Positions 33,046-34,406 of a DNA stretch of 64,000 bases are shown here, piece by piece; position 1 is the first letter of the stretch; the number at the start of each line of letters is the position of its first letter. This stretch comes from Ramlibacter cellulosilyticus (lineage in GTDB: Bacteria > Pseudomonadota > Gammaproteobacteria > Burkholderiales > Burkholderiaceae_C), in the NCBI RefSeq assembly GCF_014297465.1, contig NZ_JACORT010000014.1:1-64000 (forward strand), written 5' to 3'. Made by a program: the position numbers and the translations under genes. The notes under the pieces were generated by a model. That model was given only the letters and a program-made list of their open reading frames with translations. It searched no databases and was not told where the DNA came from.

Positions 33046-34170
33046 TTAGCGCCCTCGCCGCTGCTGCACGGCGCGTGATAGCACGTCGAGCACTTCGAGC
33101 GATTCGCCCCAGCCGATGCACGCGTCCGTAATGCTTTTACCGTACTCCAGCGCCTGCGGATCGTCCTTGCCCGGCGTGAACTTCTGCGCACCGCCGCTCA
33201 AGTGGCTTTCGATCATCACGCCGAAGATGTTGCGCGAACCGGACGCGATCTGTGCTGCGATGTCCTTCGCGACGGTCAACTGGCGCTCGTGCTGCTTGCT
33301 GCTGTTGGCGTGGCTGCAGTCCACCATCAGCACCGGGGGCAGCTTCGCCGCTTCCAGTTCGCGGCACGCAGCGGTGACGCTGGCCGCGTCGTAGTTCGGC
33401 GCCTTGCCGCCGCGCAGGATCACGTGGCAGTCGCGGTTGCCGTTCGTTTGCACGATCGCCACCTGGCCGTTCTTGTGCACCGAGAGGAAGTGGTGGCCGC
33501 GCGCCGCGGCCTGGATGGCGTCGGTCGCGATCTTGATGTTGCCGTCGGTGCCGTTCTTGAAGCCGATGGGCGCCGACAGGCCCGAGGCCAGCTCGCGGTG
33601 CACCTGGCTCTCCGTCGTGCGCGCACCGATCGCGCCCCAGGAGATCAGGTCGCCGATGTACTGCGGCGAGATCACGTCGAGGAACTCGCTGCCGGCGGGC
33701 AGGCCCAGGCGGTTGATCTCGATGAGGAGCTGGCGCGCGATGCGCAGGCCCTCGTCGATGCGGTAGCTCTCGTCGAGGTAGGGATCGTTGATCAGCCCCT
33801 TCCAGCCCACGGTGGTGCGCGGCTTCTCGAAGTAGACGCGCATCACCACCTCCAGCGTGTCCGCGTACCGCGTGCGCGCCTCCTTCAGCTTGCGCGCGTA
33901 GTCCAGTGCCGCCCCCGGGTCGTGGATCGAGCACGGCCCCATCACCACCACCAGCCGGTCGTCCGTGCCGGCCATGATGTCGTGGATCCGGCGGCGGGTG
34001 CCGCTGATCAGGGCTTCGACCGGCGTGCCGCGGATCGGGAAGAACCGGATCAGGTGTTCGGGGGGAGGAAGCACGGTGATGTCCTTGATGCGCTGGTCGT
34101 CGGTCTGGCTGGTCTTGTCGACGGGATGCGCATACCAGGCGTCGGTGGCGGCGGTGGCTTTCGGGCTCAT
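33046..34170 (-). CDS. aroG: 3-deoxy-7-phosphoheptulonate (DAHP) synthase, class I
   Basis: A 374-residue DAHP synthase condensing phosphoenolpyruvate and erythrose 4-phosphate, the entry step to aromatic amino acids. Class I motifs: VVMGPCSIHDPGAALDYA (metal Cys), MRVYFEKPRTTVGWKGLIND, GARTTESQVHRELASGLSA, GFKNGTDGNI and MVDCSHANSSKQ. It has an N-terminal extension of about 35 residues typical of allosterically inhibited AroF/G/H forms; which amino acid inhibits cannot be read. Upstream lies a Phe/Tyr/Trp-rich leader peptide and a terminator, so transcription is probably attenuated. Confidence 0.94.
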   Translation of the reverse strand: MSPKATAATDAWYAHPVDKTSQTDDQRIKDITVLPPPEHLIRFFPIRGTPVEALISGTRRRIHDIMAGTDDRLVVVMGPCSIHDPGAALDYARKLKEARTRYADTLEVVMRVYFEKPRTTVGWKGLINDPYLDESYRIDEGLRIARQLLIEINRLGLPAGSEFLDVISPQYIGDLISWGAIGARTTESQVHRELASGLSAPIGFKNGTDGNIKIATDAIQAAARGHHFLSVHKNGQVAIVQTNGNRDCHVILRGGKAPNYDAASVTAACRELEAAKLPPVLMVDCSHANSSKQHERQLTVAKDIAAQIASGSRNIFGVMIESHLSGGAQKFTPGKDDPQALEYGKSITDACIGWGESLEVLDVLSRAVQQRRGR

Positions 34171-34206
34171 GACGTGCTTTCGGGGAGGGTGGTTTTTCGC
34201 GGGCCC

Positions 34207-34237
34207 AAGAAAAAACCGCCGGGGGTGCCGGCGGTTT
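34207..34237 (-). terminator. Attenuator terminator upstream of DAHP synthase
   Basis: On the minus strand AAACCGCCGG and CCGGCGGTTT (34228-34237 and 34213-34222) form a perfect 10-bp stem with a 5-base loop, followed by a run of T (34207-34215). It ends about 37 bases before the DAHP synthase start. The 3' arm CCCCCGGCGG is duplicated inside the leader-peptide gene (34289-34298), allowing a competing antiterminator. Confidence 0.85.
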
Positions 34238-34263
34238 GTTCGAGGTTCTTTGCGTCTTCGTTC

Positions 34264-34347
34264 TTACGGGTACGCTCGGATCTCTCTTCCGCCGGGGGCG
34301 CTGGAGAACCAAAAGTAGCCAAAAAAGAAACCGCGAACGGGACGCAT
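34264..34347 (-). CDS. Aromatic amino-acid leader peptide
   Basis: A 27-codon frame (ATG at 34345-34347, TAA at 34264-34266) reading MRPVRGFFFGYFWFSSAPGG then REIRAYP. Residues 7-14 are seven aromatics out of eight (five Phe, one Tyr, one Trp), as in leader peptides that sense charged tRNA-Phe/Tyr/Trp. It sits between a hypothetical gene and the terminator at 34207-34237 ahead of DAHP synthase. Ribosome stalling at the Phe run would free CCGGCGG in codons 18-20 to pair with the terminator's 5' arm. No strong Shine-Dalgarno is visible. Confidence 0.85.
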   Translation of the reverse strand: MRPVRGFFFGYFWFSSAPGGREIRAYP

Positions 34348-34406
34348 GGATTCAATGTAGCACAAGCTGCTGACACGGCCCGCAACGGGGCCTTCGGCGC
34401 GTGGCT

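Follow-up and report, generated by a model that had tools for sequence, protein, structure and literature searches.

A candidate leaderless attenuator with a pan-aromatic leader peptide ahead of DAHP synthase in Ramlibacter cellulosilyticus and its relatives

Organization of the locus

The window, the 64,000-nucleotide stretch of Ramlibacter cellulosilyticus DNA analyzed here, carries on its minus strand a short leader open reading frame (ORF), then an intrinsic terminator, and then the gene for DAHP synthase (Table 1). An earlier note on this DNA had pointed out a 27-codon frame with seven aromatics in eight codons (FFFGYFWF), as well as an intrinsic terminator ahead of the DAHP synthase start. 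Both are present; the note named no strand, and all elements of the locus belong to the minus strand. The terminator hairpin proper spans 34237–34213 and consists of 10 pairs and a CACCC loop, followed by six T. The same note had described a 10-base terminator arm that is repeated in the leader. The repeat is indeed exact, with the 10-mer CCCCCGGCGG found exactly twice within 34150–34400 (34298–34289 in the leader and 34225–34216 in the terminator), but it is not arm throughout: the first three bases of the terminator copy form the loop, CCGGCGG forms the arm, and the complete 3′ arm reads CCGGCGGTTT.

Table 1. Elements of the leader region and the regulated gene, by position in the window
Feature	Position	Strand	Basis
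Extended −10 promoter element TGTGCTACATT	34354..34364	−	Pattern match 34345–34364
Leader peptide ORF MRPVRGFFFGYFWFSSAPGGREIRAYP, 27 codons, no Shine–Dalgarno sequence	34264..34347	−	Anti-SD duplex energy −1.5
Sensor codons 7–14, FFFGYFWF (TTC TTT TTT GGC TAC TTT TGG TTC)	34306..34329	−	Leader reading frame
Segment 1, UUCUC, proposed partner of GAGAG if ribosome-free	34304..34308	−	Suggested by sequence and predicted fold
Segment 2, CCGGCGG, antiterminator arm, leader codons 18–20	34289..34295	−	Conserved GGCGG and pairing with terminator 5′ arm
GAGAG after the arm, part of segment 2	34282..34286	−	GGCGG-N0–6-GAGAG or GGGAG in 97 of 131 loci
Intrinsic terminator AAACCGCCGG / CACCC loop / CCGGCGGTTT and T tract	34210..34237	−	Sequence scan, conservation
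DAHP synthase (AroFGH type), regulated gene	33046..34170	−	TIGR00034, E 2.9e-158, above cut-off

Within the window, the leader is the single frame with seven aromatics in eight codons (it has four nested starts). This holds for a census of 1635 start-to-stop frames of at most 66 codons each, in which one other frame reaches six aromatics. The leader RNA folds somewhat better than its shuffled versions (z −2.28, with 3 of 200 shuffles as low). NCBIfam did not recognize the leader peptide, and a scan with a loose terminator pattern found one site where 2.0 were expected from shuffles of 3.5 kb, which is not significant by itself.

Conservation of the leader and terminator

Conservation was examined at 110 DAHP synthase loci, comprising the 30 best from 61 genomes (that of the window included) and the best 80 of 595 candidates in named genomes. 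A leader was called as an ATG frame of at most 40 codons with at least five aromatics within 10 codons. By this definition 96 of the 110 loci possess an aromatic-rich leader, representing 89 distinct peptides, and a terminator is present in all 96. The earlier note had said that its reading would fail if the short frame or the terminator were not conserved among relatives. Instead, conservation held, both at these 96 of 110 loci and then in 120 of 120 genomes of the family (see below).

The 14 loci without a called leader are of several kinds. L052 lacks upstream sequence, the leaders of L074 and L081 are weaker, and L095 and L109 use a GTG start. At L002 the same leader is present but one base is missing from its T run; the aromatic run is thereby shifted out of frame, with promoter, arm and terminator undamaged. 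This could be a sequencing slip or a real lesion. No leader was found at the remaining eight of the 110 loci (L079, L080, L085, L086, L089, L100, L107 and L108). Four of these (L079, L080, L085 and L086) are from Polynucleobacter, where DAHP synthase sits close behind the end of tldD with little space for a leader; other Polynucleobacter-titled records, L063 and L068, do have the leader. Separately, the DAHP synthase of L072, a record titled Solimonas (Gammaproteobacteria), is 80% identical to that of the window and has the same kind of leader, which points to transfer or contamination.

A further 136 loci (L111–L246) were drawn from order-wide genomes, paralogs within the genus and two extra orthologs from the same genus. 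The aromatic filter was passed by 42 of 137 start sites there, of which 35 were kept and seven, judged on inspection to be chance frames, were discarded (L144, L187, L191, L220, L232, L233 and L243); L187 was probably dropped wrongly, as our RNA model later matched there (G170). Beyond close relatives, most of the DAHP synthases examined are without such a leader, many of them being paralogs. The paralogous DAHP synthases of the genus (53–59% identical; 10 loci, L135–L144) showed no ATG leader, and one chance TTG frame among them was set aside. In one genome with two DAHP synthases (G186; C170 and C15, loci L173 and L154), the leader stands before the enzyme less like that of the window (63%), and none was found before the one at 76%.

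Pooling both sets gave 131 leaders (96 and 35), including two duplicates (L018/L032 and L055/L148). By a stricter detector, a terminator follows 131 of 131 leaders, compared with 3 of 393 shuffled versions. The terminator thus exceeds chance because it is conserved, the loose scan alone being unremarkable.

Sensor codons

With respect to what the leader might sense, the 131 leaders hold 7.0 aromatics on average, and 107 of them contain Phe, Tyr and Trp together; Trp is absent from 22 and Tyr from 5. The order and identity of these residues vary between leaders while their density is kept. Codon choice is skewed as well, with TTT making up 60% of Phe codons in 96 leaders versus 16% in 63 DAHP synthase genes. 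Tyr codons show a mild bias of the same sort toward TAT (37% in leaders versus 23% in DAHP synthase genes). The TTT and TAT bias perhaps serves sensitivity to tRNA charging or keeps the RNA unstructured.

A predicted antiterminator arm conserved at the RNA level

Between the aromatic run and the terminator, GGCGG occurs in 124 of 131 leaders, compared with 14.2 expected from shuffles. Eight leaders could not be anchored on GGCGG and CCGCC, which left 123 anchored leaders. In these, GGCGG is read in frame 0 in 78 leaders, in frame 2 in 42 and in frame 1 in 3; GGREI and AVERS leaders, for instance, have the same nucleotides in different frames. Since GGCGG occurs in any reading frame, the RNA is kept more than the peptide at the arm. 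The spacing to the sensor codons is likewise constrained, as the last aromatic codon begins 11–15 nt before GGCGG in 107 of 123 leaders. This distance is approximately that from a codon held by the ribosome to the leading edge of its footprint.

These observations bear on a reading in which, as in TnaC, the nascent aromatic chain itself arrests the ribosome and the trigger is a free aromatic metabolite, with slow decoding playing no part. The dense hydrophobic aromatic stretch conserved just ahead of the arm speaks for such an arrest peptide. However, leaders compared by eye differ in which of F, Y and W they contain, in how many, and in what order (FFFGYFWF, FYFAYFWF, AFYFWFFI and FYFYFYGF), and beyond the aromatic run the sequence is translated in three different frames. 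Both observations fit codon supply and speak against a fixed arrest sequence; the TTT enrichment is a signal at the level of codons. Inspection of the leaders among themselves revealed no conserved arrest sequence of the TnaC type, and we consider an arrest peptide very improbable.

The pairing of CCGGCGG with the terminator 5′ arm as an antiterminator, as put forward in the earlier note, finds support in silico. In alignment A1, which contains 48 diverse leaders of the 123 anchored, leader arm and terminator 5′ arm pair in 90.1% of cells, compared with 16–56% in slid controls. Doubly changed cells number 10 for the arm pairing versus 5.0 in shuffles; in the terminator, 96.7% of cells are paired and 17 are doubly changed versus 4.9 in shuffles. 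The first flank position of the arm (C:G to T:A) co-varies among the 123 anchored leaders, with 95 Watson–Crick combinations versus 72.0 when shuffled and none of 5000 shuffles as high; covariation at the other flank positions is weak or absent, with none downstream of GGCGG. Covariation counted along the tree is modest, with 3 branches showing both changes versus 23 with a change in the leader arm alone (P 0.028). Simple shuffling made the covariation look very strong, and given the modest tree-aware count we do not lean on it. Judged on these sequence comparisons, the arm pairing is well supported by conservation and less so by covariation. The expectation that aromatic codons, arm and terminator co-vary is accordingly borne out in part: the three are kept together, and the leader arm changes to some extent in step with the terminator 5′ arm, with a modest tree-aware signal.

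Folding calculations gave a similar picture. When the RNA of the 123 anchored leaders was folded up to segment 3 with a ribosome at the first aromatic codon, the antiterminator had a probability above 0.5 in 115; this was so in 75 with the ribosome at the last aromatic codon, and in all 123 with the ribosome at some aromatic codon. With no ribosome present, the antiterminator outcompetes the leader hairpin in 49 of 123, so that the default-off state of classical attenuators is not clear everywhere. In the leader of the window, the probability of the antiterminator is near 0 without a ribosome and near 1 with a stalled one. The proposal that a stall at the Phe run frees the arm therefore holds in folding, with the refinement that other aromatic codons also free the arm in this window. 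Full-length RNA, on the other hand, favors the terminator, both without a ribosome (122 of 123) and with one at a middle aromatic codon (117 of 123). As the terminator is preferred at equilibrium even with a stalled ribosome, the switch would have to be kinetic and decided during transcription. The folding value for a ribosome at the stop codon is zero by construction and hence provides no evidence. In the leader of the window the stop codon starts 27 nt past the first base of GGCGG, and the arm itself may therefore be left uncovered by a ribosome paused at the stop.

Distribution of the element

A covariance model, R1, was built on alignment A1 and searched against genomes of the family, order and class; genomes that supplied training sequences are included in all of these counts, many of them among the 37 strong matches of the order. 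On the own genome R1 gave a single strong match, the next best having an E value of 0.046. In the family, each of 120 sampled genomes from 115 genera contains exactly one match at E up to 1e-6, counted by the element alone and independently of its adjacency to DAHP synthase. In the order, 160 genomes were searched: 71 contain a match at E up to 0.01, in many cases a partial one, and 37 contain a match at E below 1e-7, each time directly upstream of DAHP synthase (37 of 37). In the class, 232 genomes were searched and a match at E up to 0.01 occurs in 41. G206 and G342, from one family outside the order, have strong matches with DAHP synthase at both loci; an ORF with at least six aromatics in 10 codons was found at one (L256) and not at the other (L257).

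It could still be asked whether an ordinary terminator of an upstream transcript happens to lie beside a chance aromatic ORF, with the promoter of DAHP synthase located after the terminator. The loose scan does lead one to expect a terminator-like site by chance. In the face of an ORF, arm, spacing and promoter conserved over 131 leaders (two of them duplicates), a single copy in every family genome sampled and a terminator frequency far from that of shuffled sequence, the probability of such a coincidence is negligible. Taken together, the comparative data support the attenuator reading of the earlier note.

Comparison with Rfam yielded no match in the window at gathering score, and so no match to a known T-box or riboswitch family. 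At a relaxed threshold, Phe_leader (RF01859) gave the highest bit score (21 bits, E 0.27) and was the sole match over the whole element on the minus strand, though far below threshold; membership in RF01859 was rejected on score, given the gathering cut-off of 55. A match to sroD (E 0.073) had fewer bits and covered the terminator end only.

A predicted leaderless start

A feature absent from the earlier note's reading is the fusion of the promoter to the leader AUG. Upstream of the AUG strong conservation is limited to TGTGCTACATT and to a CC immediately before the start codon. In the window, the hexamer of this element is TACATT (34359–34354), and its final base lies 7 nt ahead of the A of the AUG. 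Of 96 leaders, 92 carry a −10-like hexamer at this place, 90 of them in extended form, and in 91 of 96 the distance from its last base to the A of the AUG is 7–9 nt; the corresponding rates elsewhere are 105 of 2096 control positions and none of 63 DAHP synthase start codons. Usual promoter spacing would place the transcript start at the A of the AUG. The median anti-SD energy is −1.5 in the 96 leaders, versus −2.7 at 1000 random positions and −6.0 at 63 DAHP synthase starts, and the base before the AUG is C in 79 of 96, giving a pyrimidine–purine initiator. From the fused extended −10, the leader RNA is predicted to be leaderless, beginning with the A of the AUG or immediately beside it. Leaderless starts have been found experimentally in Cupriavidus metallidurans, also of the Burkholderiales, where they make up 4.67% of primary starts (passages of PMC7563307).

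TGTGCTACATT might instead be an operator or the site of an upstream regulator, with the true start further upstream and a 5′ UTR before the leader. Several findings would suit such an arrangement: no conserved −35 box was seen in the 110-locus leader set (at most 0.24 bits at −36 to −30); among the 35 more distant leaders the element is present in 20 and missing from the scanned range in 15, with SD-like sequence in 11% (for example, L126); and the looser pattern TGNTANANT-N6-ATG has 3 matches in the own genome versus 1 in the reversed control, such that form alone is no proof. Nonetheless, the extended −10 form with its narrow spacing to the AUG, the preference for C before the AUG, and a Shine–Dalgarno complementarity of the leaders that is lower than at either random positions or DAHP synthase starts render a 5′ UTR rather unlikely.

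Comparison with known attenuators

In its proposed mode of action, the element would work like classical ribosome-mediated attenuation as in pheL–pheA; by target its nearest counterpart is AroR–aroF, and by start it is the trpL of Sinorhizobium meliloti. Features of the trpL/pheL class found here are a run of end-product codons, a terminator before the gene, and arm pairing in silico. In E. coli, the leader peptides of the pheL–pheA and pheST attenuators sense charging of Phe-tRNA (passages of PMC11802643). Similarity to pheL is seen in the sub-threshold Phe_leader match to the whole element; unlike pheL, the leader here precedes a different gene, adds Tyr and Trp codons, and has no Shine–Dalgarno sequence.

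AroR of Corynebacterium glutamicum is an aromatic leader peptide before aroF, which encodes DAHP synthase; its ribosome-mediated attenuation is described in passages of PMC11802643 that cite Neshat et al. 2014, and attenuation of AroR–aroF was also predicted in passages of PMC4046766. The two share an aromatic leader peptide ahead of a DAHP synthase gene. Whereas AroR contains Phe-Tyr-Phe and is reported to respond to Phe limitation and not to Tyr availability (same passages of PMC11802643), the leader here has about seven aromatics, usually with Trp. The phyla differ, and homology is not expected. C. glutamicum also provides a case of a leader peptide formed without a ribosome binding site, that of ilvBNC, as stated in the title of Morbach et al. 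2000, a paper cited in PMC4046766. That likeness concerns the missing ribosome binding site, the ilvBNC leader differing in its branched-chain amino acids and in belonging to the Actinobacteria.

In S. meliloti, the trpL attenuator RNA (rnTrpL) begins at the leader AUG (extracts of PMC7298713). The present leader resembles it in lacking a Shine–Dalgarno sequence and in having a −10 placed for a start at the AUG, with the 5′ end reported there and predicted here. S. meliloti is an Alphaproteobacterium, and its trpL is a Trp attenuator of the trpE(G) operon. By analogy with rnTrpL and peTrpL of S. meliloti, which are reported to act in trans, the terminated leaderless RNA or its peptide might do likewise, with attenuation secondary or additional. 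The predicted RNA does begin at the AUG and end at a strong terminator, as S. meliloti trpL does (extracts of PMC7298713). Since the peptide changes frame after the aromatic run, and the position of all 37 strong order-wide matches directly upstream of DAHP synthase points to action in cis, a trans role is, in our estimation, improbable.

Proposed mechanism and regulatory context

We conclude that the element very probably controls DAHP synthase by ribosome-mediated transcription attenuation, jointly sensing Phe, Tyr and Trp. The anatomy, conservation, spacing, promoter position, absence of a Shine–Dalgarno sequence and alternative pairing in silico were computed directly. From these we infer the start site, stalling, termination and starvation response of the following model. 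Polymerase would start on the A of the leader AUG or on an adjacent nucleotide, and a ribosome would load onto the leaderless message once the AUG has left the polymerase. A shortage of charged Phe-, Tyr- or Trp-tRNA would stall the ribosome within the aromatic run, with the GGCGG arm ahead of it left free. The free arm could then pair with the CCGCC arm of the terminator before the second terminator arm is made, allowing read-through into DAHP synthase. A ribosome that runs through would cover the arm or let it fold into the leader hairpin, whereupon the terminator would form and an RNA of about 140 nt would be released.

In E. coli, the DAHP synthase genes are repressed by TyrR and TrpR (passages of PMC11802643). 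Searches for TrpR (PF01371) and for the TyrR HTH domain (TIGR04381) gave no match in 37 of 37 genomes (23 of the genus and 14 of other families, with that of the window among the 37), and the E. coli positive control was found in both searches. The leader is a candidate control of entry into the aromatic pathway for a family in which TyrR and TrpR were not found, and it suggests that one leader could integrate three end products. A literature search limited to open-license papers turned up no report of such a leader in betaproteobacteria, which does not show that it is absent from print; in the body of PMC2965389, DAHP-related terms were not found.

A leucine leader with the same fusion ahead of leuA

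In the own genome (5.5 Mb), the pattern TGTGNTANANT-N5–8-ATG has two matches and the reversed control has none. One match is the DAHP synthase leader and the other is the leader MTRIALALLLSPHGRRG before the gene for 2-isopropylmalate synthase (leuA). This second leader is rich in Leu (L274:1519–1572; G000:C23, ATG at 416846), with an extended −10 fused to it and a predicted hairpin after it. In relatives, 25 leuA loci were examined; a loose Leu filter is passed by 23 of them, and 21 were judged to have real Leu leaders, these being all 20 of the same-genus leuA loci together with L301. The extended −10 occurs at the spacing of the DAHP synthase leader in 19 of the 25. These 25 were read from 30 loci, with L307–L311, which match at about 30% identity, left out.

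On balance, we favor a general arrangement in which amino acid attenuators of the Burkholderiales are leaderless, with an extended −10 fused to the leader AUG and the first ribosome engaging polymerase from the first nucleotides. According to this proposal, one pan-aromatic leader takes the place of TyrR and TrpR as the sensor of pathway entry on DAHP synthase, and the same fusion serves the Leu leader of leuA, which is unrelated. Leaderless initiation may be the standard start of attenuators here.

A looser pattern, TGCTANANT-N4–8-ATG, gave 7 matches versus 2 in the control: the DAHP synthase and leuA leaders, four ordinary protein starts and one 27-codon frame. At the four ordinary protein starts (L276, L279, L280 and L281), an extended −10 is separated from the ATG by a gap of 6–7 nt, and these genes may be leaderless as well.
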